Source: Kordia algicida OT-1 (lineage in GTDB: Bacteria > Bacteroidota > Bacteroidia > Flavobacteriales > Flavobacteriaceae). From it: a stretch of DNA of 34,465 bases. Every line of letters starts with the position of its first letter. The first letter of the stretch is position 1. The notes beneath the pieces were generated by a model. The model saw only the letters and a program-made list of their open reading frames with translations, was not told the DNA's origin and searched no databases. Location: positions 2,520,691-2,555,155 of the forward strand of contig NZ_DS544873.1 of NCBI RefSeq assembly GCF_000154725.1, given 5' to 3'. Shown here piece after piece: positions 1 through 23,008 of the stretch. The translations under genes were made by a program, and so were the position numbers.

Positions 1-2045
1 ACGAAGACGTGGAAGCAATGATAACGCTTCCTCCAACATGCAATGGTAAAAATAATTCTACTACTGACATATCAAATGCATACGTGGTAACTGCCAGTAA
101 GGAATCGTCGGCTGTGGCTGAAACTTCACTTTCCATAGCATACATTAAGTTGGTAACAGATCGGTGACGAATTTTAACTCCTTTTGGAGTTCCCGTTGAT
201 CCTGAGGTGTAAATCATATACGCCAAGTCTGTGCCATTGACAGAGACTCTTTCTAGTTCGTTGCTACAGTTTGAAACGGCTTCTAGTTTTTCTGAGAGTA
301 ACAACGTCTGAATCTCAGAGGAATCTTCAAAAGCAACATCAGAAATAAGTAAGTCTGCATGACTATCTTCCAAAATATAACTTATTCTTGAGTTTGGATA
401 GCTTTTGTCTATTGGAACATATACACAACCAAGTTTCAGTACGCTCAACATTGCCGTGAGCATCCATTCGCTTCTATCCAGCAGTAAACCTATACGAGCA
501 CCTTGTGTGATGCCATAATTTTCTCTTAGGTAGTTTGCTAATTGATTTACCGAAGCATCTAGATCACCATAATTTACAGCTCGATCTGCAAAATAAATCG
601 CAGTTGCTTCTGGAGTTGTGGCAACATTTTCCATGTAACTCGCTAAGAAACTTCCCGACAGCGGATAGTCTTTAGCAGTTGCGTTGAATCCGTCTAAAAT
701 TTGTGTGCGTTCTGCAGTTGACAGATAATCAAACGCTCCGATCTTTTTCTCTGGAGAAGCAGCTACAAGTTGCATTAATTCTTCCAAGTGAACTCCCATT
801 CGCTCCATGCGAGATTCCGAGAATAAAGAGGTATTGTATTCGATTGTTAAATGTAATTCGTCGCCACGCTTGCTGAAATAGAACGTGATGTCAAATTTGC
901 TTGTTTCTTCATCTACATATTCGCCTGTAACTATTAGATTTGAGAAAGAAGATTGGTGATCTTCGCGATCCATATCTTCTAGTACAATCATCACATCAAA
1001 TAATGGTGAACGTGTTAAATTTCGTGGAATGTCTAGTTCTTCTATTAGTAAATCGAAAGGATATTGTTGATGTTCGTACGCTTCTAAACAGGTTTGTTTT
1101 ACTTGTGCCAACAGGTTTTCATAACTCATATCTGAACTGAGTTGATCTCGAAGCGCAAGTGTATTTAGATAAAAACCAACTTGATTTTCTAAATCTGGAT
1201 GCAAACGCCCTGAAATTGGCGTTCCAATTACAATATCTTTTGTTCCCGTATAACGGTATAACAACATTTTGATTAACGATACGGCACCCATAAATAGTGA
1301 CGAATCATGCTGCCCAATTAGTGTCTGAAATTTTTCACTTATTTCTTTACCAAAAGAATATTTTGTACGTTTTCCGCTAAATGTTTGTTGTGTTGTTCTT
1401 GGGAAACATGTTGGCAAGTCTAATGGCGTTATTTCTCCTGATAGTTTTTCTGTCCAATAGGATTTTTCGACTGAATTTTTAGATATTTCTAGAGCCTGTT
1501 GCCAAACAGCATAATCTTTGTATTGAATTCGCAATGGAGCTAAAGCAACTTCATTTCCATTAACTTTTGCATTGTAAATTTGTTGTAGTTCTGCAATGAT
1601 AATTTGAACAGAAGTTTCATCAGCAATGATATGATGTATGTTGATAAAAAGAAAATGTCTATCATCGGTTAATCGAATCGCATATACTTTTAGCAAAGGA
1701 CCTTCTTCCAAATTAAAAGGAGTATTGTAAGTCTTGAAAATATGATCTACAACTGTTTCATCGGTATCAGCATTGTTGTCGTATTGAATATATTCTACTG
1801 CAAAATCAACTGTTTCTGGTGCTTTTACCTGTTGTTTTACTTCTTCATCTTGCCAAAGAAAAATAGTACGTAAACTTTCGTGTCTCTTTAATATTTGTGA
1901 AAAAGCGTATGACAATGCTTCCAAATCTAATGTTCCTTCTAACCAATGTCCAAAAGTGATGTTGTAAGCAATAGTGTCGTCATTTAACTGATCTAAAAAC
2001 CACAATCTGCGTTGTGAATATGATAGTGGATAGTTTTCTTGTACT
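1..2045 (-). other. NRPS-B module 3: C domain and start of A domain (cut by window edge)
   Basis: The C domain begins ENYPLSYSQRRLWFLDQL and has HHIIADETS (about 1618-1642), with Thr in place of the usual aromatic. The A domain shows YTSGSTGTPKG and FDMSVVELF before the edge, giving only the first three pocket residues, D-M-V. That is too little to predict the amino acid. It is unlike the lysine modules, so a third, different residue is added here. Confidence 0.85.
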
Positions 2046-3766
2046 GTTGACACAGGAATTGCCTCGTATTGCGATACTTCCATAGTTGCCAATACGTCTG
2101 ATTGCTCTTGCAATACAGGATACATGAAGATTTCTTTTAAACCTATAGCTACTGAGAATTCCTCTTGAATTCTACTAGCTATTTGAACTCCTTTTAACGA
2201 ATGCCCGCCTAGTTCAAAGAAATTGTCTGTGATACCAATTACATCTACTTTTAAGACCGTTTTCCAAATCTGAATTAGTTTCTGATCTCTTTTATTTCTA
2301 GCTTTTTGATATATTTTTTCTGATGCCTGAATTGGATCTGGTAGTTTGTCGAATGCTATTTTTCCATTTGCCGTCATCGGAAACGTTTCCAAATTCACCA
2401 AATACGTTGGAATCATATAATCGGGCAATTCGTTACGCAATGCAGTACGCAAAGCAACTTCCAAACAGTCTCCTGTAAAGTATCCTACCAAATGTTGGAT
2501 GCCGTGTGATTTGTAACCTAGCACATAACTATCATTAACTCCTTGTACTTGTAGCATGGCATTGGATACTTCCATCGTTTCTACACGATATCCTCGTATT
2601 TTTAATTGATGATCTTTTCTGCCTATAAAGTGTATATTTCCTTCATCGTCCCAATAACCAAGATCTCCTGTTTTGTATAATTTACCTTCACCAAATGGAT
2701 TGTCAATAAAACGCTCCTTTGTAAGTTCCAGTTGGTTGTGATAACCAACTGCGATTCCTTTCCCACCTAAGTATAATTCGCCTATTACATGTGTTGGTTG
2801 TAATGCTAAATCGTCAGTACAGATATAAATACTTCGGTTTGCTATTGGCGAACCAATACAGTTGGAAACACTGTTTTTGTTTAATTTATAGAAACTTGTA
2901 CAAACCGTTCCTTCTGTGGGTCCGTAAGTGTTGTATACGCCAACTTTTGATGAGAAGTTTGAAACATAGTCAACTTGTAATGCATCGCCACCACTGATTA
3001 AAATTCTGAGTGATGGAAGGCTTGTCGTTTCTAGCAGTTCATTAATACTTTGTATCACTAGCGGCGTACTACTGAGCAACGTTGCCTTGTGTGTTTGGAT
3101 CAGTGTGAGCAATTTTTCAACGTCTTTCCCGCCAGAAGGCGTTAAGATTAATGTTCCACCAATACTTAAAATCGGATAGATTTCTTCTACACTGGTGTCA
3201 AACGAGAAAGATGATTGTTGTATGACAATGTCTTCTTGTGTGAGCTGAAAATATGTTGTAAATGTTTCTACATAGTCTAACAATGAATCGTGACTAATAC
3301 TTACTCCTTTTGGATTTCCTGTCGTTCCTGAGGTGTACATGATGTAAGCAACATCATTCGCTTTCGGTATGACGGCTTTAAAGTCTGTAGCGTATCCAGA
3401 TAAATTATCTTCACTAAGCGTTATTGTTGAAACGCTTGTTGCGGTTTCTATTGCTTCACTTTGGATAAGGACTTCCAATCCGCTGTCTGTGATGAGATAG
3501 TTTTTTCGTGCCTCAGGATATTCACTGTCTATCGGCACATAGGTTCCACCTGTTTTTAATACACCCAACATGCTTATAATCATGTCAAATCCTCGGTTTG
3601 TCATTAAACCAACTATACTTCCCCTTTTTATATTGTATTCTTTGGTAAGTTGATTCGCCAATTGATTGGAAAGCGTTTCTAAGGCTTCATAGCTGAGTTC
3701 TTTGCCCTCATAAAGCAATGCTCTTGCCGTTGGTGTTGCTACTGCTTGTGTTTTGAATAGTGATAC
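1..3766 (-). CDS. NRPS-B continuation in the shifted frame (3' end outside window)
   Basis: After the deletion cluster the NRPS reading frame stays open from about 3766 to the left edge (codon first bases at positions 1 modulo 3, against 2 modulo 3 upstream). It encodes the module 2 A domain and carrier, then module 3: a C domain (about 2045-740, motif HHIIADETS) and the first part of an A domain. There is no start codon of its own with a credible context, so it is the continuation of the gene starting at 10277, not a separate gene. If the deletions are real, this half would probably not be translated. Confidence 0.88.
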
Positions 3767-5045
3767 ACTGAATAGCTGTATAGTTTTGTGTTTGCCTTGG
3801 CTGTATGATTGATCGTTTCTTTTCTGATGCTGATAGTAAGCTGTAGTTTCTATCGATTTTGTCGGAGTTCACTACCACTTCTAATATATTGTCTAGTGCT
3901 TTTATAAAAGTTTCTAGTTGTGACTTGTTATAAATTGCTGTGTTGTAACGAATCATCAGGGATAACTCATCCCCTTTTTCGCTGAATTCCAAAAGTAAAT
4001 CGTTGAGACTTGTTGGTGTTTCAATTGTTTCACTTTCAATACTCACATCTTCAATTAAATCATGAAAACCAAGCGCATTTTCAAAGTTTTGGAATAAAAC
4101 CAAGACATCTAGCAATGGTAGTTTTCCCATGTTGCGTTCCAAACCTAATTCTGAAATTAACCTATCAAAAGCATACGATTGATGATTGTATCCTGACAAT
4201 AGTTCCCTATGCACTGTTTCAAGCAATGCCGTAAAATTGTCTTCCTTTGAAAAGTTAATTCTGATTGGCAAGAGGTTTAAGTAGTATCCTACTTGATTTT
4301 CTAGGTCTTGGTGAATTCTGCCTGCTGTATCAGTTCCTATGATAAGATCTGTTTTACCAGTGAGTTTATGGAACAAACCACTTAATACACTCATGATTCC
4401 CGTGAAGGTTGTTACTTTATTTGCCGCACATAATGCTTTTAAATTTTTACTGATTTTAGAATCAAAAGTATGATATAAATACCCACCTGAAAAGGATAAT
4501 ACATCGCCACCATTGTTGGCAAATGGCAATTCTAAACTTGGTAATTCGCCTGAAAAACGTTGCAACCAATAGTTACGAGATGTTTCATACGATTCGCTTT
4601 CTTCATAGGTTTTATACCAAGAGATATAGTCTTTGTATTGCAATCGAAGTGGCGAAAGTGGCGACTGCTTTCCTAAACTGTAGGTTTTGTATAACGATTG
4701 TAATTCTTTGCTAATTATGTCAATAGACCAACCATCACTGATAATATGGTGAATGACAAATATGAAATAGTACCGAGATGAAGCTATTTTTATAAGCTCC
4801 ACTCGAAGCAAAGGACCTTCTGATAAGTCAAAACTACTGTTGGCAACATCATAAGCGCGTGCTTTTGCCAATGCCTCCGGAGTTTTTTGACTGCTAAAAT
4901 CTAACATGCCTACTTCAAATTCGAAAGCACTTGATGGAATGACCTGTTGATATACTTCTTCATTTACAGTATTGAAAACTGTACGCAAACTATCGTGTCG
5001 ATTGACAATCGTTTTAAATGCATTTGTGAAGGCTATTGGGTTGAA
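1985..5045 (-). repeat. Tandem module repeat, promoter-distal copy (3061 bp)
   Basis: Near-identical partner of 5109-8177, shorter by exactly the eight bases missing at 3765-3873; no other net indel was found at the anchor points checked. The 63 bp between the copies (5046-5108) are not part of the repeat. Confidence 0.93.
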
Positions 5046-5169
5046 AGCTTTTTCTCCTAATTCAATATCACACAACCAACATAAGTTGAATGATTGCTTT
5101 GCAATTCCTAACTGATCTAAAAACCACAATCTGCGTTGTGAATATGATAATGGATAGTTTTCTTGTACT
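2046..5169 (-). other. NRPS-B module 2: C-A-T, lysine-like, near-copy of module 1 and frameshifted
   Basis: From 5045 to 1985 this module is about 98% identical to module 1 by eye, with the same pocket residues and the same carrier motif, so a second lysine-like residue is predicted. The C domain has HHIISDGWS (around 4728-4751). Only its first 40 or so residues differ from the module 1 C domain. The C-A linker carries the eight one-base deletions. The A and T parts (about 3760-2090) match the sister copy with no indel. Confidence 0.82.
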
Positions 5170-8100
5170 GTTGACACAGGAATTGCCTCGTATTGCGATA
5201 CTTCCATAGTTGCCAATACGTCTGATTGCTCTTGCAATACAGGATACATGAAGATTTCTTTTAAACCTATAGCTACTGAGAATTCCTCTTGAATTCTACT
5301 GGCTATTTGAACTCCTTTTAACGAATGCCCGCCTAGTTCAAAGAAATTGTCTGTGATACCAATTACATCTACTTTTAAGACCGTTTTCCAAATCTGAATT
5401 AGTTTCTGATCTCTTTTATTTCTAGCTTTTTGATATACTTTTTCTGATGCCTGAATTGGATCTGGTAGTTTGTCGAATGCTATTTTTCCATTTGCCGTCA
5501 TCGGAAACGTTTCCAAATTCACCAAATACGTTGGAATCATATAATCAGGCAATTCGTTACGCAATGCAGTACGCAAAGCAACTTCCAAACAGTCTCCCGT
5601 AAAGTATCCTACCAAATGTTGGATGCCGTGTGATCTGTAACCTATCACATAACTATCATTAACTCCTTTTACTTGTAGCATGGCATTGGATACTTCCATC
5701 GTTTCTACACGATATCCTCGTATTTTTAATTGATGATCTTTTCTGCCTATAAAGTGTATGTTTCCTTCATCATCCCAATAACCAAGATCTCCTGTTTTGT
5801 AGAGTTTCCCTTCTCCAAATGGATTGTCAATAAAACACTCCTTGGTAAGTTCTGGTTGGTTGTGATAACCAACTGCGATTCCTTTCCCACCTAAGTATAA
5901 TTCGCCTATTACATGTGTTGGTTGTAATGCTAAATCGTCAGTACAGATATAAATACTTCGGTTTGCTATTGGCGAACCAATACAGTTGGAAACACTGTTT
6001 TTGTTTAATTTATAGAAACTTGTACAAACCGTTCCTTCTGTGGGTCCGTAAGTGTTGTATACACCAACTTTTGATGAGAAGTTTGAAACATAGTCAACTT
6101 GTAATGCATCGCCACCACTGATTAAAATTCTGAGTGATGGAAGGCTTGTCGTTTCTAGCAGTTCATTAATACTTTGTATCACTAGCGGCGTACTACTGAG
6201 CAACGTTGCCTTGTGTGTTTGGATCAGTGTGAGCAATTTTTCAACGTCTTTCCCGCCAGAAGGCGTTAAGATTAATGTTCCACCAATACTTAAGATCGGA
6301 TAGATTTCTTCTACACTGGTGTCAAACGAGAAAGATGATTGTTGTATGACAATGTCTTTTTGTGTGAGCTGAAAATATGTCGTAAATGTTTCTATATAGT
6401 CTAACAATGAATCGTAACTAATACTTACTCCTTTTGGATTTCCTGTCGTTCCTGAGGTGTACATGATGTAAGCAACATCATTCGCTTTCGGTATGACGGC
6501 TTTAAAGTCTGTAGCGTATCCAGATAAATTATCTTCACTAAGCGTTATTGTTGAAACGCTTGTTGCAGTTTCTATTGCTTCACTTTGGATAAGGACTTCC
6601 AATCCGCTGTCTGTGATGAGATAGTTTTTTCGTGCCTCAGGATATTCACTGTCTATCGGCACATAGGTTCCACCTGTTTTTAATACACCCAACATGCTTA
6701 TAATCATGTCAAATCCTCGGTTTGTCATTAAACCAACTATACTTCCCCTTTTTATATTGTATTCTTTGGTAAGTTGATTTGCCAATTGATTGGAAAGCAT
6801 TTCTAAGGCTTCATAGCTGAGTTCTTTGCCCTCATAAAGCAATGCTGTTGCCGTTGGTGTTGCTACTGCTTGTGTTTTGAATAGTGATACAACTGAATTA
6901 GCTGTATAGTTTTGTGTTTTGCCTTGGCTGTATGATTGAATCGTTTCTATTTCTAATGCTGATAGTAGGCTGTAGTTTTCTATCGATTTTGTCGGAGTTT
7001 CAACTACCGCTTCTAATATGTTGTCTAGTGCTTTTATAAAAGTTTCTAGTTGTGACTTGTTATAAATTGCTGTGTTGTAACGAATCATCAGGGATAACTC
7101 ATCCCCTTTTTCGCTGAATTCCAAAAGTAAATCGTTGAGACTTGTTGGTGTTTCAATTGTTTCACTTTCAATACTCACATCTTCAATTAAATCATGAAAA
7201 CCAAGCGCATTTTCAAAGTTTTGGAATAAAACCAAGACATCTAACAATGGTAGTTTTCCCATGTTGCGTTCCAAACCTAATTCTGAAATTAACCTATCAA
7301 AAGCATACGATTGATGATTGTATCCTGACAATAGTTCCCCATGCACTGTTTCAAGCAATGTCGTAAAATTGTCTTCCCTTGAAAAGTTAATTCTGATTGG
7401 CAAGAGGTTTAAGTAGTATCCTACTTGATTTTCTAGGTCTTGGTGAATTCTGCCTGCTGTATCAGTTCCTATGATAAGATCTGTTTTACCAGTGAGTTTA
7501 TGGAACAAACCACTTAATACACTCATGATTCCCGTGAAGGTTGTCACTTTATTTGCCGCACATAATGCTTTTAGATTTTTACTGATGTTAGAATCAAAAG
7601 TATGATATAAATACCCTCCTGAAAAGGATAATATATCGCCACCATTGTTGGCAAATGGCAATTCTAAACTTGGTAGTTCGCCTGAAAAACGTTGCAACCA
7701 ATAGTTACGAGATGCTTCATACGATTCGCTTTCTTCATGGGTTTTATACCAAGAGATATAGTCTTTGTATTGCAATCGAAGTGGCGAAAGTGGCGACTGC
7801 TTTCCTAAACTGTAGGTTTTGTATAACGATTGTAATTCTTTGCTAATTATGTCAATAGACCAACCATCACTGATAATATGGTGAATGACAAATATGAAAT
7901 AGTACCGAGATGAAGCTATTTTTATAAGCTCCACTCGAAGCAAAGGTCCTTCTGATAAGTCAAAACTGCTGTTGGCAACATCATAAGCGCGTGCTTTTGC
8001 CAATGCCTCCGGAGTTTTTTGACTGCTAAAATCTAACATGCCTACTTCAAATTCGAAAGCACTTGATGGAATGACTTGTTGATATACTTCTTCATTTACA

Positions 8101-10277
8101 GTATTGAAAACTGTACGCAAACTATCGTGTCGATTGACAATCGTTTTAAATGCACTTGTGAAGGCTATTGGGTTGAATTCTCCTTCAATTTTTGAAATAT
8201 TAGTAATATGAGCTGCCGTACTTTGATTGAATTGATGCAGCATCCAAAATCGCTTCTGCCCTTCCGTAAGCGGATATTTTTCTTTTGCTTGAGTTGCTTT
8301 TATTTGTGCTACATATTCAAGCTTTTCGTTTTTAAGATATTCACTTAATGCAGCTACACTTGCATTTTTGAACAGTGTTTCTATTGATATTTGATATCCA
8401 AGTTGATGAATTCTTGATAATAATGCAGTCGCTTTTAGACTGTTAAATCCATCTGTAAAGAAATTTTGAGAGACTTTTAAGTCATCATTTTTAAGAATGT
8501 TTTTTGCAATGGACCAAAGGTTATCTTCTAACGTAGTTCCTTGTTTATTTTCCTTTCTAATTAGTTCCTGTTCTAGTTGTGCAACAGTTTGAATTTGTTC
8601 TTGATAATCCCCGTTAAGATATTGTTGTACAAGTTGATAGTGCTGTACTTTTCCGCTAGTTGTTTTAGGAATACTTCTTACTGCAATTACATGTGCAACA
8701 GCAATATTGAGTTCGTTAAGCACTTCTCGTTTTATGTCCCAAATTGTAGGGATAAATTGTTCTGTTACGCGTCGTTGCTGTACAAAAATCAGTAGTTCTT
8801 CAGAATGATTGACGTCTTTTCGAGCGCTACATGCTACAATAACTCCTGGTTTTAGCTGAAGTTTTTCAGAGACAACTTCTTCTATATCTTGCGGATAAAT
8901 GTTTTGTCCGTTGATAATGATTAGGTTTTTAGCGCGTCCGGTAATCACTAAAGCGCCATCATATAGAAATCCTAAATCACCTGTTCTGTGCCAACGATCT
9001 TCGGTTTTGCAGTCTGCGCTTATTTCGGGATCATTATAATATCCTTCCGTAACATTTGCTCCTTTTATTTGAATGTGCCCAATATGCTTATCGTCGAGAA
9101 CTTCGTCAAAATCATTGGCTATTCGAAGGTAACTTTGTGCTATTGGTCTACCAACTTCTACGAAAGAAGTACTATTTGATGCTTCTGAGTTTTCAACTTC
9201 TACTATTTTATCTCCGATTTTTAGATAATCTCGATTTACAAAGTAACATTTAAAAGGATGTCCAACTATTGGAAGTGTGACTGCCACACAAGCTTCTGCC
9301 AATCCATATCCAGGATATAATACTGTTGGAGGCAATTGAAATTGGCTCATTTCTTCTAGAAACTGATTGCATAGTTTCCATGAGATTGGTTCTGCGCCAT
9401 TATAAATTATTCGTACATTCGATAGATTCCATTCGATAGGACTTTTTGCCGTAGCAATTGCCGATAGAATGTATTGAAAACCAAAATTTGGTGAGTAAAG
9501 TAAGCTTGCACGGTGTTCGCTTGCTTTTTCCATCCACAGTAATGGTCGTCTAATAAAAAGTGTCGTTGGTAAGAGAAATTGTTCAATTTTTCTTAGTGTA
9601 CATGATAAGTGAAAACATATCAGTCCCATGTCATGTGTTAGTGGCAACCAACTAAGTGAACGATCTGATTCAGTAATTTCAGAACGCTCAGCAATGTCCA
9701 TTATATTAGCAACTAAATTTGCATGTGTAAGTACTACTCCTTTTGGATTTCCTGTTGAACCAGATGAGAATTGTATGTACGCAATGTCTTCTGCAACAAT
9801 GTTAGCATGAGTGGTTCCAAATGACTTTTCTGCTACGGCAGCTTCCGTTACTAAAGTTGCTTTGGTTATTTCTTCATATCTAGTTTCGGCAGTTTCATCA
9901 TTTTCATACGAGAACATCTTATCTAGTAAGTCTTCATCACATACTAGAAAAGGATTGTTCAATTTTTTCCAAATATTGTATAGCTTATGCTTGTGTCCCG
10001 CTTGTCTTCCTATGGCAACAGGAACAGGGATCATTTTCCCCAAGATACATGCCCAGAAAACTTGTAAAAAGTCTGCATTATCATTGATTTGAATTACAAC
10101 TTCATCACCCGATTGCACTCCAAAATCTTGTAAATTTTGTAGTGTATAGAGTGCTTTGTTCTTCAATTCTTGATACGAATACGTCAATTCGTTACTTGAT
10201 GAACGAATGAATGTAACCCCAGTTTTTGCTAATGTAGCATTTTCTAGGACATCTACTAAAGTAGTATTACTGTGCAT
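3708..10277 (-). CDS. NRPS-B, acyl-initiating NRPS, truncated by frameshifts
   Basis: 2189 codons from the ATG at 10277, 120 bp after the PPTase. Order: fatty acyl-AMP ligase (1-575), carrier (Ser613), C (about 665-1090, HH at 799-800), A (about 1110-1600), carrier (Ser1652), C (HH at 1843-1844), then out-of-frame residues from about 2135 to the stop. Reading resumes in another frame from about 3766 and continues to the left edge. The break is caused by eight one-base deletions (3765-3873) relative to the sister module at about 6890-7005. The family assignment is certain. Whether the break exists in the cell is doubtful; a sequencing or assembly error in a repeat is at least as likely. Confidence 0.93.
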   Translation of the reverse strand: MHSNTTLVDVLENATLAKTGVTFIRSSSNELTYSYQELKNKALYTLQNLQDFGVQSGDEVVIQINDNADFLQVFWACILGKMIPVPVAIGRQAGHKHKLYNIWKKLNNPFLVCDEDLLDKMFSYENDETAETRYEEITKATLVTEAAVAEKSFGTTHANIVAEDIAYIQFSSGSTGNPKGVVLTHANLVANIMDIAERSEITESDRSLSWLPLTHDMGLICFHLSCTLRKIEQFLLPTTLFIRRPLLWMEKASEHRASLLYSPNFGFQYILSAIATAKSPIEWNLSNVRIIYNGAEPISWKLCNQFLEEMSQFQLPPTVLYPGYGLAEACVAVTLPIVGHPFKCYFVNRDYLKIGDKIVEVENSEASNSTSFVEVGRPIAQSYLRIANDFDEVLDDKHIGHIQIKGANVTEGYYNDPEISADCKTEDRWHRTGDLGFLYDGALVITGRAKNLIIINGQNIYPQDIEEVVSEKLQLKPGVIVACSARKDVNHSEELLIFVQQRRVTEQFIPTIWDIKREVLNELNIAVAHVIAVRSIPKTTSGKVQHYQLVQQYLNGDYQEQIQTVAQLEQELIRKENKQGTTLEDNLWSIAKNILKNDDLKVSQNFFTDGFNSLKATALLSRIHQLGYQISIETLFKNASVAALSEYLKNEKLEYVAQIKATQAKEKYPLTEGQKRFWMLHQFNQSTAAHITNISKIEGEFNPIAFTSAFKTIVNRHDSLRTVFNTVNEEVYQQVIPSSAFEFEVGMLDFSSQKTPEALAKARAYDVANSSFDLSEGPLLRVELIKIASSRYYFIFVIHHIISDGWSIDIISKELQSLYKTYSLGKQSPLSPLRLQYKDYISWYKTHEESESYEASRNYWLQRFSGELPSLELPFANNGGDILSFSGGYLYHTFDSNISKNLKALCAANKVTTFTGIMSVLSGLFHKLTGKTDLIIGTDTAGRIHQDLENQVGYYLNLLPIRINFSREDNFTTLLETVHGELLSGYNHQSYAFDRLISELGLERNMGKLPLLDVLVLFQNFENALGFHDLIEDVSIESETIETPTSLNDLLLEFSEKGDELSLMIRYNTAIYNKSQLETFIKALDNILEAVVETPTKSIENYSLLSALEIETIQSYSQGKTQNYTANSVVSLFKTQAVATPTATALLYEGKELSYEALEMLSNQLANQLTKEYNIKRGSIVGLMTNRGFDMIISMLGVLKTGGTYVPIDSEYPEARKNYLITDSGLEVLIQSEAIETATSVSTITLSEDNLSGYATDFKAVIPKANDVAYIMYTSGTTGNPKGVSISYDSLLDYIETFTTYFQLTQKDIVIQQSSFSFDTSVEEIYPILSIGGTLILTPSGGKDVEKLLTLIQTHKATLLSSTPLVIQSINELLETTSLPSLRILISGGDALQVDYVSNFSSKVGVYNTYGPTEGTVCTSFYKLNKNSVSNCIGSPIANRSIYICTDDLALQPTHVIGELYLGGKGIAVGYHNQPELTKECFIDNPFGEGKLYKTGDLGYWDDEGNIHFIGRKDHQLKIRGYRVETMEVSNAMLQVKGVNDSYVIGYRSHGIQHLVGYFTGDCLEVALRTALRNELPDYMIPTYLVNLETFPMTANGKIAFDKLPDPIQASEKVYQKARNKRDQKLIQIWKTVLKVDVIGITDNFFELGGHSLKGVQIASRIQEEFSVAIGLKEIFMYPVLQEQSDVLATMEVSQYEAIPVSTVQENYPLSYSQRRLWFLDQLGIAKQSFNLCWLCDIELGEKAFNPIAFTNAFKTIVNRHDSLRTVFNTVNEEVYQQVIPSSAFEFEVGMLDFSSQKTPEALAKARAYDVANSSFDLSEGPLLRVELIKIASSRYYFIFVIHHIISDGWSIDIISKELQSLYKTYSLGKQSPLSPLRLQYKDYISWYKTYEESESYETSRNYWLQRFSGELPSLELPFANNGGDVLSFSGGYLYHTFDSKISKNLKALCAANKVTTFTGIMSVLSGLFHKLTGKTDLIIGTDTAGRIHQDLENQVGYYLNLLPIRINFSKEDNFTALLETVHRELLSGYNHQSYAFDRLISELGLERNMGKLPLLDVLVLFQNFENALGFHDLIEDVSIESETIETPTSLNDLLLEFSEKGDELSLMIRYNTAIYNKSQLETFIKALDNILEVVVNSDKIDRNYSLLSASEKKRSIIQPRQTQNYTAIQCITIQNTSSSNTNGKSIAL
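3765..3873 (-). other. Cluster of eight single-base deletions that break the NRPS-B frame
   Basis: Compared with the sister copy (about 6887-7006), eight bases are missing one at a time. In plus-strand terms: ACAACT to ACACT, ATTAGC to ATAGC, GTTTTG to GTTTG, TGAATC to TGATC, CTATTT to CTTTT, GTTTTC to GTTTC, and in GAGTTTCAAC both one T and one A. Seven shorten a run of identical bases. The net change of -8 moves the frame. The pattern looks more like poor base calling or assembly than evolution. Confidence 0.85.
5109..8177 (-). repeat. Tandem module repeat, promoter-proximal copy (3069 bp)
   Basis: Covers most of the module 1 C domain, its A and T domains and the first residues of the module 2 C domain. 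It aligns with 1985-5045 at an offset of 3124 bp up to 3705 and 3132 bp beyond 3961. Identity is lost abruptly at both ends (after 8177/5045 and before 5109/1985). By eye there are about 30 substitutions over the 1.7 kb of the A-T part. Confidence 0.93.
5170..8289 (-). other. NRPS-B module 1: C-A-T, lysine-like specificity
   Basis: The C domain has HHIISDGWS (about 7860-7883). The A domain has YTSGTTGNPKG, TYGPTE, TGDLGYW and NGKIAFDK, and the carrier has GGHSLKGVQ. The pocket code by eye is D-T-E-S-I-G-T-V-C-(K), close to the lysine code I remember from bacitracin synthetase (DAESIGSVCK). The acidic third position fits a basic side chain, so Lys (or Orn/Dab) is predicted. As the first C domain after an acyl carrier it should work as a starter C domain that N-acylates the first residue. 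Confidence 0.82.
8290..10277 (-). other. NRPS-B loading module: fatty acyl-AMP ligase plus acyl carrier
   Basis: The adenylate-forming domain has FSSGSTGNPKG (170-180) and SWLPLTHDMGLI (209-220), the latter typical of fatty acyl-AMP ligases rather than amino-acid A domains. Also visible are YGLAEA, LIIINGQNIYPQDIEE and the lysine motif TTSGKVQ. It should activate a fatty acid and load it directly on the fused carrier, whose site reads DGFNSLKA (Ser613) rather than GGHSL. This starter is known from lipopeptide and lipo-PKS assembly lines and predicts an N-acylated product. Confidence 0.9.
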
Positions 10278-10397
10278 AAGATATTATGATATTGTTTTCT
10301 TTTACATGAGTTGTAAAAGGAAAAAATCTTTTTTTAGAGAATTCGACTTGTTTTTGAGAATGTTTGAATCTTTTATAAGCTTTTATGAAAATTAAGC

Positions 10398-11039
10398 TTA
10401 CAAGTAATGTTTTTGTATTAAGACAATAGGAGAATTATATGGTTCTTTAGTAGCTATATGAGCAGTGTATTTTTCAGAAAGAGATATTTCTTTTAGATAC
10501 CATTTTCCATGATTTACTACGGTTGCTTGACTTCCAGATATTTCAATGTTTTTTAACGGAATGTTTAGTCCGTCACCTATCGCTTTTACCAAGGCTTCTT
10601 TTTTTGTCCAGTAGTTGTAAAATGTGTAATAATCTGTTGTGTCTTTGTAGATTACTTCGGTTTCTTTTGGTGTCCAACAATCGTAAAAGTCGGTTTTATC
10701 TATTGGATTTATTTTTTCAACATCTATTCCCACATCACCGTTTGTATTGATAGCACACATAACCAGTGTTTGTGTATGAGAAATATTAAAGTCGATTTTT
10801 TTAGAAATATATGGTCTACCGTATTGATTATATTTTAATATCGAGAGATCAATTGTAGGTAGCCCGATGTCTTTTAATCCTTGTATGAGAAGTAATTTAC
10901 CCACTAAAGAAGTGTGAGCATCTTCCCAATTTTTGTAACGTTGGATTTTTTCTTGAATTGCAATTGGCATCTGGTTAAGATACCTTTTATAGTTTGCGTC
11001 GGTTAGCGGTTGGTCTAATTTCGCATAATAAACTCGCAT
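10398..11039 (-). CDS. 4'-phosphopantetheinyl transferase, Sfp/Gsp type
   Basis: 213 residues, normal for Sfp-type enzymes, which move the phosphopantetheine arm of CoA onto the carrier serine and so activate NRPS carrier domains. Visible motifs: FNISHT (84-89), the Mg2+-binding GIDVEKI (104-110) and WTKKEALVKAIGDGL (144-158). ATG start at 11039. It follows the hairpin at 11056-11095 and is separated from NRPS-B by 120 AT-rich bases in which I find no convincing flavobacterial promoter (no TTTG with a spaced TAnnTTTG). It most likely serves all carriers of this cluster. Confidence 0.95.
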   Translation of the reverse strand: MRVYYAKLDQPLTDANYKRYLNQMPIAIQEKIQRYKNWEDAHTSLVGKLLLIQGLKDIGLPTIDLSILKYNQYGRPYISKKIDFNISHTQTLVMCAINTNGDVGIDVEKINPIDKTDFYDCWTPKETEVIYKDTTDYYTFYNYWTKKEALVKAIGDGLNIPLKNIEISGSQATVVNHGKWYLKEISLSEKYTAHIATKEPYNSPIVLIQKHYL

Positions 11040-11055
11040 GAATTTTTATACTAAT

Positions 11056-11095
11056 GCTAAAATGCATTCGAGATAATTCTCAAATACATTTTAGC
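11056..11095 (-). promoter_or_regulatory. Long RNA hairpin between the secreted-protein and PPTase genes
   Basis: On the minus strand two 18-nt arms (GCTAAAATGTATTTGAGA and TCTCGAATGCATTTTAGC) flank a 4-nt loop ATTA. All 18 positions pair in RNA, two of them as G-U wobbles. On the plus strand those positions would be A-C mismatches, so the structure favours a minus-strand transcript. It ends 16 nt before the PPTase start and is not followed by a clear U-run, so a rho-independent terminator is doubtful. It may be an mRNA-stabilising or processing element, or may limit translation of the PPTase. Confidence 0.7.
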
Positions 11096-11122
11096 TTGAT
11101 TTATTTACTATTTACAGGTGTT

Positions 11123-11722
11123 TTATTTATTTGACGTAACATCAGCAAGAGTAAAAGCTGGTCCTTGTCCACCTTTAGTATTGATAATAAATGGAAGATC
11201 TCTGTTATTTAAAATCCAGTAAGCTAATTCTCCATCTTTTTCAACTACATAAATAGCATCGACAACTTTTTTACCAATTTTGATTTCTTCTCCTTTTGGC
11301 ATGCTTTTTAATTCAAAAACTTTGTCATCATATTTTGCAGTTTTCTTACTTTTAATTTCGTCTAAGAATTTTCTAGATACTGAAAATATTGTTTGATCTT
11401 TTGGAAGGACTCTTTTTTCTGAAGGATTTAAAGGTTGCCAGTTTAGGTATTTACCGTTTTCAAGTCCTGTTCCAGAGATAATCCATTGCCCTGAGATTTT
11501 CTTTTTTCCATTTACCATAGAGTACTCTAATACTACCTGATCTTCACTCATTTCTTTTATTTCTAACGGAAATAATACTTTACTTCCTTTTGGTCCCATT
11601 GCTGAGTATGTTAAAACTAGACTTGGTGCAATCTCTAGTTTTGTTTTCTTTTGAGCAGTCACTGAGGTCATAATAAATAATGCTACCACAGCAGTTAATA
11701 AGTTTTTAATTTTTAAGTTCAT
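11123..11722 (-). CDS. Small secreted protein of unknown function
   Basis: About 199 residues from the ATG at 11722. A longer reading would begin at a TTG at 11731, adding three residues, but the ATG gives a cleaner signal peptide (MNLKIKNLL, then a hydrophobic run ending SVTAQ, cleaved before KK). There is no lipobox cysteine, so it is probably a soluble periplasmic or secreted protein. The mature part looks rich in beta strands and has many Lys and Glu; I recognise no domain. It sits 10 bp after the thioesterase and upstream of the PPTase, inside the operon. Self-protection, product binding or maturation in the periplasm are possible roles, but none is shown by the sequence. Confidence 0.8.
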   Translation of the reverse strand: MNLKIKNLLTAVVALFIMTSVTAQKKTKLEIAPSLVLTYSAMGPKGSKVLFPLEIKEMSEDQVVLEYSMVNGKKKISGQWIISGTGLENGKYLNWQPLNPSEKRVLPKDQTIFSVSRKFLDEIKSKKTAKYDDKVFELKSMPKGEEIKIGKKVVDAIYVVEKDGELAYWILNNRDLPFIINTKGGQGPAFTLADVTSNK

Positions 11723-11732
11723 AGTTATCAAT

Positions 11733-12443
11733 TTAATAATTATTTAATAAGGTTTTTGTTTTAATATAATAGTTAAGTAATGCTGTTACTTCTTTTTTGT
11801 GATCAAAAATGAAAAAATGATTTCCTTCGAATTCTTTGATGTCTATTTTATGTATGGTTTCATCTTGCCATTCTTTTGCTTCATTCCAAGTGACTTTGTC
11901 TTTGTTTCCTATAAAGACTGTCATGGGTGTCTTTAAAGGAGCTTGTTTTTGATATTTATAGGTTTCAATTGCTTTGAAATCTGCTCGTAATGAAGGCTCA
12001 AAAAGCGCCATTAGGTCATCGTTTTGCAAAATTTCTTCTGGGCAACCACCCATTTTTCTGATTTTTTCTACAAATTCATCTTTTGGTAAGTCATTATAAA
12101 ATGGTGGCTTACGCTCAATTTTCGGAGCTCTACAACCAGAAACAAACAAATGAATCGGATTTGGAAAATCACTTTTCGCAATTTTATGTGTCAATAAATA
12201 TGTCAAAACAGCTCCCATGCTATGTCCAAAAATAGCGTATGGTTTATATTCATTTTTCTTTAGTTGTTCATATAAATCATCAACTATGTTATGAATATCT
12301 GTTTGTAAAGGTTCATTAAATCTTTTTCCTCTTCCTGGAAGTTCTAGAGTTATTAAGTTTATACTTTTGTCTAAGTATTCTTCCAAAGGTACGTAGGAAT
12401 ACTTGTTTCCTCCTGCAAAATGCAGACAAAATAAATTCACCAT
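11733..12443 (-). CDS. Type II thioesterase (alpha/beta hydrolase) of the NRPS system
   Basis: 236 residues, the usual size of stand-alone NRPS editing thioesterases. The opening LFCLHFAGGNKYSY and ELPGRGKR (34-41) are typical of the GrsT/RifR family. The catalytic triad is readable: Ser75 in GHSMG (73-77), Asp182 in GNKDKV and His209 in EGNHFF. The family hydrolyses stalled or misprimed groups from carrier phosphopantetheine arms. Because no terminal TE domain is visible in either NRPS, it could also assist product release, but I see no direct sign of that. The next gene begins only 10 bp after its stop. Confidence 0.94.
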   Translation of the reverse strand: MVNLFCLHFAGGNKYSYVPLEEYLDKSINLITLELPGRGKRFNEPLQTDIHNIVDDLYEQLKKNEYKPYAIFGHSMGAVLTYLLTHKIAKSDFPNPIHLFVSGCRAPKIERKPPFYNDLPKDEFVEKIRKMGGCPEEILQNDDLMALFEPSLRADFKAIETYKYQKQAPLKTPMTVFIGNKDKVTWNEAKEWQDETIHKIDIKEFEGNHFFIFDHKKEVTALLNYYIKTKTLLNNY

Positions 12444-12464
12444 GTTTAGTTATTCTTTTCCTAC

Positions 12465-14138
12465 TTAATTTATAGTCCTTTTTACTTTATTAGTCACAAA
12501 CTGTGCCAAGTTTTCTTTATCACTTACAATTTTTCCAAAATTAAATTTGATGACTCTGGTCGCTCTGTCAAAATACTCATCATCATGTGTAATAGCGATG
12601 ATTGTCTTTCCTTGTTCTTGAAGGTGTGGCAGTATTTGTTCGTAGAAATATTTTCTAAATCCAGGATCTTGCTCTGCTGCCCATTCATCTAGTACGATAA
12701 TATCTTTGTCTTCTAGCAAAGCATAGATAAGTGCTAATCTTTTTTGTTGTCCTTTTGATAAGTTTTTATCAAATGTATTTCGCTCTTCGTCAAGATGAAG
12801 TACTTCTTCCATTTTCATCATGTCGATATGCGATTTTAATGTTTCGTTATCTTTTTTTAATTCAAATTCATCGTAGTTTTCACTAAAGATATAATTGGTT
12901 GTAAAGACTGCTGAAATTTTATCACTGTAATACATTAATTGGCTAGAGTCTATTTTTTGGTTGTTGAAATATATTCCTCCTTCATATGGTTCATATAATC
13001 CCGTAAGTAGATTTCCAAATGTACTTTTACCACTTCCGTTACCACCGGTAATAAAAATGATTTCTCCTTTTTTGATAACGAGATTTACTGGTTGTAAGTA
13101 AAACTTTTGATTTTTTTCCTCATCGTTGTAAAAATATGTTACATCTTCAAACCTTATTTCTTCAAATGATTCCATGTTATCAAGTTTACTAGGAGCGATT
13201 CGATCTTGAATTGGATCTAGCATTTGTTCTATAAGATTTAAACGCTGTGCAGAAATTTTCACCATTGTATAGGTTGGAATTAAAGTAATTAATACTGCTA
13301 CAGGTCCAATGAGGTATAGGATCGTAATTAGAAAAGCTGTTGTTTTTTCAGCATTCATGTTAAAATAGCTAGGCAATACAAACATTACTATTCCGAGTAT
13401 AATGTACCAACTGTAGTATCCTGTTAGCTCATTGTCCATATATTTTATAGAAGTATCTATGGCAATGTTTTTTCCTTTAACTCTATTTTTCACTAAGAAT
13501 TTACTAAAGATATTATTGTTACGTAAAACACCCATTTTCAATTCCTTGAAACCGTGTAACATGTCTGCCAAATACTGGTAATATGTGTTTTGTAAATCTC
13601 GACGCTCGTTTAATTCTTTTTCAATCGCATTGTTTCTCACTAAGTAAAAGATGAGCAATATTACCATTGTTACTACTACCAAACCTGCTCCGATTGGAGA
13701 AATGTAAAAGAGATATCCAAAACAACAAAGAATTACTATGAATGAGTTAAAAGCATTCATAAATACTTCTGGCACACTTCCCAATACTTTGGTATCATTG
13801 ATTGCTGTGTATATTTTTTCATTCCCAATTTCCTCAAAGTCTTGATAGGAAGCCATACGCAACTTTTTTAGAATCATGACTTCAAAGTCAAATAATAAAT
13901 TGTTGGTTAACTTTATCATATATGTTTGGAAGAAACGTGAACATACCAAAGATGCTAGAATTATTGCTATAAAGAGCGCCCAATCGTATTCTGGAAAGAA
14001 TGGAATAGGTTCTTTAATGATAGTATTGTTTATGAAAACTAATAATCCTGCATTAAGAATACTATTAAAGATTCCTAATATGAGCATAAAGCCCAAAGCT
14101 TTTTTAGATTTACTTAGTAATGTTTTGACAAAATTCAT
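12465..14138 (-). CDS. Peptide-export ABC transporter, SyrD/PvdE-type fused permease-ATPase
   Basis: 557 residues. The N-terminal membrane domain has about six hydrophobic segments (near 15-38, 53-70, 130-148, 150-168, 245-258, 267-290). The ATPase domain follows: Walker A GGNGSGKST (365-373), signature LSKGQQKR (460-467), Walker B IIVLDEWAAEQDP (480-492) and switch His in AITHDD (His518). DEWAAEQDP with Trp after the catalytic Glu is typical of the cyclic-peptide exporter branch (syringomycin SyrD, pyoverdine PvdE). It should work as a homodimer in the inner membrane, moving the NRPS product to the periplasm. The thioesterase gene starts 21 bp downstream. Confidence 0.94.
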   Translation of the reverse strand: MNFVKTLLSKSKKALGFMLILGIFNSILNAGLLVFINNTIIKEPIPFFPEYDWALFIAIILASLVCSRFFQTYMIKLTNNLLFDFEVMILKKLRMASYQDFEEIGNEKIYTAINDTKVLGSVPEVFMNAFNSFIVILCCFGYLFYISPIGAGLVVVTMVILLIFYLVRNNAIEKELNERRDLQNTYYQYLADMLHGFKELKMGVLRNNNIFSKFLVKNRVKGKNIAIDTSIKYMDNELTGYYSWYIILGIVMFVLPSYFNMNAEKTTAFLITILYLIGPVAVLITLIPTYTMVKISAQRLNLIEQMLDPIQDRIAPSKLDNMESFEEIRFEDVTYFYNDEEKNQKFYLQPVNLVIKKGEIIFITGGNGSGKSTFGNLLTGLYEPYEGGIYFNNQKIDSSQLMYYSDKISAVFTTNYIFSENYDEFELKKDNETLKSHIDMMKMEEVLHLDEERNTFDKNLSKGQQKRLALIYALLEDKDIIVLDEWAAEQDPGFRKYFYEQILPHLQEQGKTIIAITHDDEYFDRATRVIKFNFGKIVSDKENLAQFVTNKVKRTIN

Positions 14139-14165: not shown

Positions 14166-16043
14166 TTATGAAGCATTTGGCACATCAAAAACATCGATAA
14201 ACATATTGAATGTAAGCACAATAATTAGTAAATCTAAGTCGTATGGCGGATTTAGAATAAACCCATCTCTACTGTACATTTTTTTGAGACGTTCTACCGT
14301 ATCTGGATTAAAGTAACCTTGCCTTTTGATTCGGTCATAAGACAGTAATTCATTTACCCACTCACTATTGGTTTTTAATAAATGTGGACTTCCTGGCGCT
14401 ACAAATCCAAATTTCTCACGATTGATAATTTCTGAAGGAACATACTTTTGAGCCACTTTTTTAAGTATGTATTTCTCTTGCATATCTTTCACCATTAATG
14501 ATGGTGGTATTGTTTTAGCAAAGTTAATGAGGTCTACATCTAAAAATGGATAACGACCTTCCACATTGTTTGCCAAAGTCATACGATCTCCATGATCTGC
14601 TATGAGATGTCCACCTAAACGTAATTTAAAATCTACGTAAGAACGTTGGTGAAAGTGATGTCTATCCTTTATACGTGAATGATCTATTGCTGGTTCACGC
14701 AAACAATCAAAGTCCTTATATGAATTGTTTAAAAGTGATGAGTATAAAGCTTGTTTGGTTTCTCTAAATTCATTTTCATTTTTTTCATAAATGAAATCAG
14801 GATTTCCCCAAAGTTTTTTTCGAACCTCATCTTCTCTTAGGTGTTCTAAATCTTTGTAGCCAATGTTTCCTTCACGTCTACCATCAAATTTATAGCCTGC
14901 ATATCCACCAAATAATTCGTCTGCACCTTCACCCGAAAGCACTACTTTTATTTTTTCGCTTTTTGCTCTTTCTGATAAAGCGATTGAACAGATATTATAG
15001 GTTTCTTTTAAAGGAGATTCCGAATAGTAAATAACATTTCGAAGTTTATTTTCAAAATCGTCCCAGCGAAATGGTACTTCGTTGTGTTTTGATTTTACTT
15101 TTTCGCTTAGCAAACGCTGAAAACGTTGTTCGTTAATATCTTTGTTTTCTGTATTTGGAAAACATATTGAAAACGAATTGAATTCTTTTGTTTTGTCTAA
15201 ATGACGCATCATTCCGCCAATCATAGACGAGTCGAGTCCACCACTCAAATAAAACCCAACAGGAACATCAGCATTTAAACGATAGTTTACAGATTTTAAG
15301 AGTAAATCATTTAGATTTTCTATATAATATTCTTCAGATTTTTGACCGTAATCGTAGTCTTTCGTCGGATAATCAAGATTCCAATATTCTTTGGTTTCTA
15401 GCTTATTGTTTTTCAGAATAGCATAGTGTCCAGGCTCTAAACTTTTTACATCATCAAAAAATGTTATTGGCGCAATATTTGCCGGAAACGTAAAGATTTG
15501 ATCTAATCCTTTGTGGTCTATTCTTCTTGTAACATCTGGATGCTCTAAGACTGATTTTATTTCTGAACCATACACCAAAGCATCTTCTAATTTTGCATAG
15601 AATAATGGACAAATTCCGAAGTGATCTCTTGCCATTAACAAAATTTCATTTCGTTTATCATATAAACAAAAGGCAAATTGGCCGTTAATCATGTTCAGGA
15701 AATCTGTTCCGTATTCCATGTAAAGGTATACGATGACTTCAATATCACAATTTGTTTTAAAGGAGTATCCTTTTGCCTCCATTTTTTGACGTAATTCCCT
15801 GTAATTAAAGATTTCGCCATTACAAGTCAAAACGATAGATTTATCTGGGCTAAAGAACGGTTGCATTCCATGACTCAAGTCAATAATACTGAGTCGTACA
15901 AAACCAAGACCAACATGACCATCAACGTAGCAGGCTGAATCATCAGGTCCGCGATGTTGAATTTTATTGGTCATTTGAACTATAATTTTTTCGTTAGCAA
16001 TACGTTCTCTATCGAAATTATAAATTCCACTTATTCCACACAT
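14166..16043 (-). CDS. asnB: Glutamine-hydrolysing asparagine synthase-like enzyme (AsnB family)
   Basis: 625 residues, normal for AsnB. Cys2 after the initiator Met is the class II glutaminase nucleophile, and HRGPDDS (30-36) and NGEIFNYREL (75-84) belong to the same domain. The synthetase domain shows the PP-loop SGGLDSS (267-273) and GEGADELFGGY (371-381). Family chemistry: ATP activates a carboxylate, which ammonia from glutamine then converts to an amide. Within an NRPS operon it may make Asn as a building block or amidate a carboxylate of the peptide. The intact Cys2 argues against a beta-lactam synthetase-like cyclase without glutaminase activity. It is followed after 27 bp by the exporter gene. 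Confidence 0.93.
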   Translation of the reverse strand: MCGISGIYNFDRERIANEKIIVQMTNKIQHRGPDDSACYVDGHVGLGFVRLSIIDLSHGMQPFFSPDKSIVLTCNGEIFNYRELRQKMEAKGYSFKTNCDIEVIVYLYMEYGTDFLNMINGQFAFCLYDKRNEILLMARDHFGICPLFYAKLEDALVYGSEIKSVLEHPDVTRRIDHKGLDQIFTFPANIAPITFFDDVKSLEPGHYAILKNNKLETKEYWNLDYPTKDYDYGQKSEEYYIENLNDLLLKSVNYRLNADVPVGFYLSGGLDSSMIGGMMRHLDKTKEFNSFSICFPNTENKDINEQRFQRLLSEKVKSKHNEVPFRWDDFENKLRNVIYYSESPLKETYNICSIALSERAKSEKIKVVLSGEGADELFGGYAGYKFDGRREGNIGYKDLEHLREDEVRKKLWGNPDFIYEKNENEFRETKQALYSSLLNNSYKDFDCLREPAIDHSRIKDRHHFHQRSYVDFKLRLGGHLIADHGDRMTLANNVEGRYPFLDVDLINFAKTIPPSLMVKDMQEKYILKKVAQKYVPSEIINREKFGFVAPGSPHLLKTNSEWVNELLSYDRIKRQGYFNPDTVERLKKMYSRDGFILNPPYDLDLLIIVLTFNMFIDVFDVPNAS

Positions 16044-21605: not shown

Positions 21606-23008
21606 TTAGAAATCTTTACTGATGTCAGAACCAAACAAATCGGAAGCTAATTGTTCTTGTTGACGTTCTGTATCAGTTAAAAAATCAAAATCTATGATGG
21701 ATTGTGTAGCATCTGTACTTACAAGCGCAATTAAAGTTTTCATGTGCTCAATAAGTTGTACTATACGTTCTTTTTTAAATAAATCAGTATTATATTCTAG
21801 AGTTCCTCCAATGGTATGACCTAAATCAGCAAATTGAAATCTTAGATCACTTTTGCTAATCTCCATTGGTTCTTTTATAGGTTCAACGGTAACTCCGTTC
21901 ATTTCCAAATCTGATTCTCGGTGAATGTCTACGTTTTGTAAAATCATCACTACATCAAATAAAGGTGATCTGCTAAGGTCTTTTTTCAACTTTAAGTTTT
22001 CAATAAGCATATCAAACGGATATTCTTGATGCTCAAAAGCCTCTAATGCCGTTTGCTTTATTTCTGAAAGGAAATCGACATATTTTGTTGCTGGATCAAA
22101 TTTACTTCGCAATGCCAAAGTATTTAGGTAATACCCTATTTGTCCTTCCAAATCTGGATGTTCTCTACCTGCTATTGGTGTTCCTATAATGATATCTTCT
22201 TGTCCTGAGTAGTGATAAAGAATCGTTTTTACTATAGACAATAATCCCATAAAGAGCGTTGCATTTTGCTCTTGCAATAGCTTTTTGAATGCTGTTGCCG
22301 TTTCTTCTGAAAATTCAAAATTTAATTCTGAACCATTGAAAGTTTGCAATGCTGGACGAGGAAAGTCAGTAGGAATTAATAACACAGGAATTTCCCCTTC
22401 AAATTTTTTCATCCAAAATTCATGATGACTTTCTGTTCCTATATTGGCCAATTCTTGTTCTTTCCAAGCTACGTAGTCTTTGTATTGTATTGCTAGCGGC
22501 GTTAAGTTTGGTGTTTCGTAAGCCAAAAATGCATTGTAAATCGTTAAGATTTCTTTTACAAATATTTGCAATGACCATTCGTCAGAAATGATGTGATGCG
22601 TAGCGAATAATAGCATGTGCTTTTCTGGCGCTAATTTGAGTAGTTTTACTTTCATTAACGGTCCATTTTGAAGATCGAAAGGATAAAATGCTAATTTTTG
22701 TACTTCTGCATCAATGACTTCTTTGCTCTCTTTTACGGCTTGAAGATCGGCAATTTCCAATACAAAAGATTGTTCTTCCATTGATTGAATTTTTTGCCTT
22801 GGTTCTCCATCTTTTAAGATGAATATTGTACGTAAACTTTCGTGACGCTCAATAACATGCATTAGTGCTTTTTGAAGTAGTTCTGTTTGCAATGCACCTT
22901 CCATATGGTAGCGCATGAAAATATTATAGGTATTTTCTCCTTTTTGCTGTTGCGTTTCCTGAACCCACAATCTACGTTGTGCATGGGAAAGTGCGTAATC
23001 GTCCTGTT
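21606..23008 (-). other. NRPS-A: terminal condensation domain without an A or T partner
   Basis: A full C domain starts at DYALSHAQRRLW and carries HHIISDEWS near 22570-22600 and the usual C-terminal EYNTDLF segment. The protein ends about 40 residues later. The next gene is not an NRPS, and the other NRPS in view starts with an acyl ligase, not an A domain. It could pair in trans with an A-first NRPS outside the window, or release the chain by condensation with a free nucleophile. Confidence 0.85.

Follow-up and report, generated by a model that had tools for sequence, protein, structure and literature searches.

Concerted evolution of NRPS modules is a known phenomenon. Domains within one cluster are then closer to each other than to the domains at the same place in related clusters, and concerted evolution has been described for the A domains and most of the C domains of the daptomycin, A54145 and CDA clusters, an extreme and repetitive example being syringopeptin (Medema et al. 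2014, PMC4256081). Gene conversion and concerted evolution make NRPS duplications hard to date (Booth et al. 2022, PMC9205934), and A domains shift from one module to another irrespective of their C domains (Baunach et al. 2021, PMC8097286). In PKS, the assembly-line repeats of more than 80% identity known as GRINS are attributed to gene conversion (Nivina et al. 2021, via PMC9899208), and a tandem module duplication is described from fungi (PMC2644324). The secondary metabolites of Kordia are described as hardly known (PMC10734526); a hybrid NRPS cluster of about 225 kb, with likenesses in Flavobacterium, is reported from K. antarctica (PMC7477175). Here we describe a tandem pair of NRPS modules in Kordia algicida and in three other genomes. 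Compared with the account of Medema et al. 2014, homogenisation is seen here in the DNA and synonymous positions of co-linear clusters and extends across an entire module, with a sharply bounded position-specific segment; compared with the difficulty noted by Booth et al. 2022, that segment dates the duplication before the lineages split. The literature accessible to our search, most subscription papers lying outside it, covers the general phenomenon (PMC4256081), and we found neither this cluster nor a protected C-domain front described in it. What may thus be new is the protected front segment and its possible donor role.

The tandem modules and their gene cluster

The window, by which we mean the whole stretch of DNA analysed (34,465 nucleotides), covers bases 2520691-2555155 of the 5.03-Mb genome of K. 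algicida (G000) in one contig. When the window was compared with itself by BLASTN, positions 1985-5045 matched positions 5109-8177 at 98.14% identity over 3069 columns with 49 mismatches. The runner-up self-match by score reached 66.7% over 489 columns, so the near-identity of the two stretches is far beyond chance. A base-by-base alignment placed eight single-base gaps between the copies, all of them in the downstream copy at 3766-3870, and revealed that the match breaks off abruptly at both edges. A previous sequence-only reading of this DNA had proposed such a self-comparison, and its description of two adjacent, almost identical modules proved accurate in the coordinates, the identity of about 98%, the eight deleted bases and the abrupt ends. 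Its contrast with a diverged NRPS-A holds inside the window; parts of NRPS-A nevertheless have partners of 93-99% identity in cluster regions outside the window. A search of the K. algicida genome with 1985-8177 found no third copy, the remaining matches being short and at most 83% identical.

Both modules lie on the minus strand within a synthetase that starts at 10277, and 5109-8177 is therefore the upstream module. This first copy (module 6) has Pfam Condensation, AMP-binding and PP-binding matches and comprises the C domain without its first ~57 residues, the A domain, the carrier and the start of the next C domain as far as the motif RLWFLDQL. The second copy (module 7; 1985-5045, minus strand) has the same layout, with its frame broken near 3708-3718 by the patch of single-base losses. 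Between the copies lies a 63-base (21-residue) island of C domain 7 (5046-5108, minus strand; GIAKQSFNLCWLCDIELGEKA). Its counterparts are the N-terminal position-specific segment of C domain 6 (8178-8240, minus strand; region QFNQSTAAHITNISKIEGE) and the matching 63-base segment of C domain 8 directly after the second copy (1922-1984, minus strand). Residue numbers within modules follow module 6 of Kordia aestuariivivens unless stated otherwise.

The deletion patch (3766-3870, minus strand) is quite probably a sequence error rather than the mark of a truly broken gene, since seven of the eight losses fall in runs of 2-4 equal bases, all eight lie within 105 bases, and neither unit is interrupted or out of frame in the other three genomes described below. 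Three other breaks of the cluster in K. algicida consist of N runs. Two of these border the window directly, at edges 1 and 34465, and fall between cluster stretches of ~99% identity. Codons after the patch are out of frame, so the K. algicida values for modules 6 and 7 in the module and front comparisons (87% and 64%) are too low and were left out.

All of the genes in the window that we describe lie on the minus strand. At the start of the synthetase stands an acid-loading ligase of the fatty acyl-AMP ligase type with a carrier (8283-10277), and C6 is therefore expected to be the first C domain, the one that loads the donor. For the ligase, the best PDB matches are the adenylation-domain protein 6ulw (E 1.8e-93) and McyG (4r0m, 7.5e-92), followed by further proteins headed by the fatty acyl-adenylate ligase 3pbk (1.2e-68) and similar to it in kind; the best NCBIfam match is 'fatty acyl-AMP ligase' (E 8.3e-110, below the model cut-off). 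Most likely, then, C6 joins the acid to the first residue and the acid is a fatty acid, although the starter may be something else, given that neither of the two best PDB matches is named a fatty acyl ligase. Downstream of the pair, C8-A8 of module 8 (1-1921) runs into the scaffold N stretch at the window edge. Upstream of the synthetase are a 4'-phosphopantetheinyl transferase (10398-11039; PF01648), a stand-alone thioesterase (11733-12443; PF00975), an ABC exporter (12465-14138) that falls just under the cut-off of the cyclic peptide export family TIGR01194 (284.9 vs 286.2), an asparagine synthase-like amidotransferase (14166-16043; PF00733, TIGR01536), and a flavin-dependent oxidoreductase with a Lys/Orn N-monooxygenase family match (16102-17661; PF13738, PF13434). 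These are followed by a protein without a Pfam or NCBIfam match, which served as a single-copy marker of the cluster (17719-19788), a carbamoyltransferase (19810-21561; PF02543, PF16861), and NRPS-A, present from inside C domain 1 to C domain 5 (21606-34465), with an N stretch just beyond the window edge.

A-domain codes were extracted for the two Kordia genomes and for the second of the two Flavobacterium genomes described below. The code DTESIGTVCK occurs in both copies in K. algicida and the second Flavobacterium and in module 6 of K. aestuariivivens, and DTESIGTICK in module 7 of the latter. We take DAESIGSVCK to be the code of Lys-activating A domains; DTESIGTVCK shares 8/10 of its letters, with position ten assumed to be K. 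The earlier prediction of two consecutive, identical lysine-like residues is supported in part, by codes that are equal in two genomes and near-equal in the third and that may stand for lysine. Gene C closes with a C domain; gene A has an A domain at its start and a C domain at its end, and gene D runs from an A domain to a terminal thioesterase. Judging by these gene ends, the order would be B, C, A, D, with about 16 residues of which acyl-Lys-Lys come first, where substrate names are those we presume for the codes. From this we infer a product of ~16 residues, probably a lipopeptide, beginning acyl-Lys-Lys.

The same pair in four genomes

We searched for the cluster with the marker gene at 17719-19788. 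Among 11 genomes of the genus it was found in K. aestuariivivens YSTF-M3 (G001) at 82% identity, with matches of only 33% in G003 and G009. Among 398 genomes of Flavobacterium it was found in F. circumlabens P5626 (G405, 79%) and in a second Flavobacterium (G562, 81%). No other strong match, and three weak ones, appeared among 397 genomes of the family, and a further genome (G920, 81%) came up in a draw of 395 genomes from the order and once more in a draw of 395 from the phylum. These draws overlap and each samples part of its group; within the sampled genomes the cluster is rare and scattered. The marker protein of K. algicida is 82% identical to that of the other Kordia, hardly above its 79-81% identity to those of Flavobacterium. 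Such near-equal identities, together with the scattered distribution, hint at transfer between genera. The flavin oxidoreductase (16102-17661) has no match at its place in the cluster of the second Flavobacterium, where its neighbours are matched.

The pair occupies 60453-63517 and 63585-66649 of contig C8 in K. aestuariivivens (94.1% identical) and 6863-9936 and 10001-13074 of locus L034 in F. circumlabens (96.3%); in the second Flavobacterium, whose chromosome is in one contig, the copies are 93.4% identical with 0 gaps. Comparison with orthologous clusters, proposed in the earlier reading as a way to count modules, therefore gave two modules in each of the four readable clusters, and the suggestion that the repeat could expand or contract found no support. 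The fifth cluster cannot be counted: contig C23 (L056) of G920 begins 121 bases inside the tandem unit, and the search of that assembly listed nothing else close to the unit. A contig end inside the unit is what one would expect where short reads fail to span a repeat.

Set side by side, the two copies within a genome are 98.3% (K. algicida), 94.0% (K. aestuariivivens), 96.3% (F. circumlabens) and 93.4% (second Flavobacterium) identical, and units from different genomes are 69-78% identical. The corresponding dS values within genomes are 0.040, 0.192, 0.109 and 0.221; between genomes they range from 1.1 up to saturation, and dN is below dS in every pair. Paralogous modules 6 and 7 are thus closer than orthologues in all four genomes, also at synonymous sites. 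Likewise, a maximum-likelihood tree of the eight units joins the two copies of each genome, with support of 100/100 at all four pairs. With 132 columns of K. algicida masked and gapped columns left out, 456 columns differ between the copies in some genome (407 in one genome, 46 in two and 3 in three), and none of the 456 separates copy 1 from copy 2 in all four. The differences within a pair are clustered in K. aestuariivivens and both Flavobacterium genomes (0/2000 simulations reach the variance) and not in K. algicida (p 0.20). This clustering could come from uneven constraint rather than from conversion. Of the four clusters compared, that of K. algicida contains N stretches and that of F. 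circumlabens is cut by a contig end.

The edges of the unit are equal to within a few bases across four genomes and two genera. The C7 island is 81-87% identical between genomes at the nucleotide level and 17-33% identical to the C6 segment of its own genome. The C6 segment is 65-86% identical between the four genomes, and the C8 segment 68-83% between genomes and 25-32% identical to the C7 island of the same genome. A tree was also built from the 46 codons that precede the unit (for C8, the matching stretch). In it C6 stands apart from C7 plus C8 at 100/100; the C8 rows fall together at 80/100, the C7 rows form no resolved group, nothing pairs by genome, and the bootstrap values were not yet fully stable. 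Within a genome, C7 and C8 share 89-99% identity over the 25 codons that immediately precede the island, a likeness which indicates that homogenisation reaches the motif RLWFLDQL and stops there. A consistent difference between C6 and C7 is limited in all four genomes to the first ~57 residues of the C domain.

The near-identity within genomes, the divergence between genomes and the position-conserved island point to an old duplication that was homogenised in each lineage. We consider it very probable that an old tandem pair has been kept near-identical by repeated copying, separately per lineage, through gene conversion or an equivalent recombination. The earlier reading had offered recent module duplication or ongoing homogenisation as the origin of the pair. 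Of these, homogenisation agrees with dS values of 0.04-0.22 within genomes and 1.1 or more between them and with the pairing of copies by genome; recent duplication conflicts with a two-module state that has the same edges and the same 63-base island in four genomes with far-diverged synonymous sites. New duplication was rejected on the conserved C7 island, since a fresh copy would put C6 or C8 sequence into it. Independent recent duplications of one ancestral module in each lineage would also yield near-identical copies within each genome, but we regard them as very unlikely, for the four clusters share the unit edges, the conserved island matches neither C6 nor C8, and loss and regain of a module would erase it. 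That the strain has only one module, duplicated in assembly, gains some colour from the scaffold N stretches in other repeats of the cluster and from the error-like patch in copy 2; with 49 substitutions between the copies, an island between them and two copies in three other genomes, it is scarcely credible. Purifying selection might alone keep the modules alike without any copying, and dN below dS in all pairs fits this, yet synonymous sites that are near-identical within genomes and strongly diverged between them leave that reading with next to no probability.

Under the favoured account of an old pair homogenised by copying, one duplication would have preceded the split of the compared lineages, and one copy would have overwritten the other repeatedly and independently in each lineage, most likely by gene conversion, presumably of the RecA type. 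We infer this copying indirectly, from the pattern in four clusters.

Signs of homogenisation elsewhere in the assembly line

Sixteen condensation domains, identified by their active-site motif, stand in the same order in K. algicida, K. aestuariivivens and the second Flavobacterium; an HMM search of K. algicida gives 17 C-domain matches, one domain being split by an N stretch. In 400-base windows, non-NRPS windows included in the totals, the best same-genome paralogue exceeded the best orthologue in 133/359, 155/359 and 149/349 cases in these three genomes, respectively. For whole modules, the paralogue is clearly above the orthologue for 6 and 7 in all three genomes and mostly so for 10, 11 and 13. 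For modules 1, 4, 8, 14 and 15 the best paralogue is often equal to or below the orthologue because only part of the module is shared. Modules 2, 3, 5 and 16 behave vertically, their best paralogue reaching 54-61% against 74-81% for the orthologues. The sequences thus suggest that homogenisation, in a weaker form and chiefly in A domains, also touches parts of most other module groups. In K. aestuariivivens and the second Flavobacterium, everything from residue 58 on is shared in group 6/7; group 8/15 has a mostly position-specific C domain with a shared linker and A domain, and groups 1/9/14 and 4/10-13 have a C domain near balance and a shared A domain.

Module 9 groups with module 14 in K. 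aestuariivivens, with module 1 in the second Flavobacterium and with none in K. algicida. Its A code is DVWHISLIDK in K. algicida (genome positions ~2516270-2518009, outside the window), DLTKIGEVGK in K. aestuariivivens and DIFQITLIWK in the second Flavobacterium. The product residue probably differs between the species through A-domain replacement, and these differing codes resemble what Baunach et al. 2021 describe. There, however, recombination makes the products more diverse; in the present clusters it serves mostly to homogenise modules whose codes are equal, and pairs 6/7 and 1/14, unlike the cases described there, share much of the C domain too. Six A domains per line (those of modules 4, 10, 11 and 13 and those with which NRPS-A and NRPS-D open) share the code DAKQVALVLK, with the unusual core-motif form FYSSGTTGKSKA in those whose core motif was read.

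Duplicated regions of at least 500 bp and more than 80% identity, as in GRINS, are present here. Unlike GRINS as summarised in PMC9899208, the line is an NRPS, and at module level GC/AT skew is not visibly stronger in homogenised modules than in vertical ones in K. aestuariivivens and the second Flavobacterium; the GRINS procedure itself uses 150-base windows. With no module-level difference in these two genomes, we consider a GRINS-like skew an unlikely driver. GC at fourfold sites in homogenised vs vertical A domains is 0.262 vs 0.159 in K. algicida, 0.271 vs 0.212 in K. aestuariivivens and 0.278 vs 0.215 in the second Flavobacterium, possibly an effect of GC-biased conversion. GC is also raised in the vertical C bodies of modules 1, 8, 14 and 15 of K. 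aestuariivivens and the second Flavobacterium (0.305 and 0.286), and K. aestuariivivens shows no such rise in its homogenised C bodies of 6/7 (0.239).

The fronts of the C domains and the upstream donor

C6 and C7 have a common acceptor, A domain and carrier, and a different upstream partner. C6 would receive its acyl donor from the ligase and carrier, C7 would receive an acyl-lysyl donor, and all parts downstream of the fronts would do an equal job in modules 6 and 7; on this account the fronts would be held against conversion. Over all within-genome module pairs, residues 24-57 track the donor label by 16-20 points (0/5000 label shuffles as large) and the acceptor label by 12-13 points (p 0.001-0.004). 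For residues 58-415, the acceptor effect is 19-20 points vs 12-14 points for the donor (p 0.001-0.003). A few groups drive these effects and the genomes are not independent; the donor and acceptor labels are those we presume from the codes, with that of C9 taken from the inferred gene order. The fronts (residues 24-57) are unlike in 6/7 and 8/15 (37-58%), and alike in 1/14 (85-95%) and 11/12/13 (78-89%), in places above orthologues. Fronts with the same donor are also often unlike, as in C5 vs C11-C13 (51-54%), C1 or C14 vs C11-C13 (37-49%), C7 vs C8 (51-54%) and C9 vs C16 (37-43%). A pure donor rule was rejected on the misfits of C5 and of C1/C14 against C11-C13.

The closest described case is RzmA-Cs, for which Zhong et al. 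2021 (PMC7804268) name Q36 on strand beta1, Y138 and R148 as acyl-length residues and describe a change of acyl chain upon exchange of the N-lobe. Like RzmA-Cs, C6 follows an acid-loading part and has one of the three acyl-length residues in its front. By the offset of the phmmer match, Q36 corresponds to query residue 41-46, inside the C6 segment (residues 30-50), if the chain numbering is that of the paper. The other two residues map to the homogenised part, where C6 and C7 of K. algicida are the same. The difference from RzmA-Cs, as described there, is that a whole lobe was exchanged in that case and the contrast between C6 and C7 covers only about the first 57 residues. The active-site motif HHxxxDG of starter C domains is found as HHIISDG in both C6 and C7.

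The donor role of the fronts is a matter of correlation, and homogenisation could be right with the fronts merely marking the homology limit of the original duplication, carrying no donor information. Conversion needs homology, and C6, C7 and C8 are unlike in the 63-base stretch; the unlike fronts of same-donor domains fit this reading as well. Nevertheless, the C6 and C7 segments keep 57-90% protein identity by position between genomes that are so diverged, which argues that they are constrained, and in group 8/15 the fronts are alignable yet position-specific next to a homogenised A domain. Weighing these points, we judge the homology-limit reading almost as probable as its opposite. The stronger proposal, that the first ~57 residues, and chiefly the 21-residue segment after the first motif, might alone suffice to set the donor, we put forward as doubtful in view of the same-donor fronts that are unlike and of the ligase's two top PDB matches.

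The four lineages offer a natural experiment at base level, in which two C domains with different inferred donors are alike over most of their length, and a single short exchange could test directly where donor selectivity, a disputed matter, sits in C domains. NRPS modules that are near-identical are not necessarily young, and they can break assemblies, as in the draft genome G920. If the fronts do set the donor, recombination may overwrite all of the assembly line except a short donor-side key, and acyl-accepting and lysyl-accepting C domains would otherwise have been kept interchangeable by gene conversion in four species.
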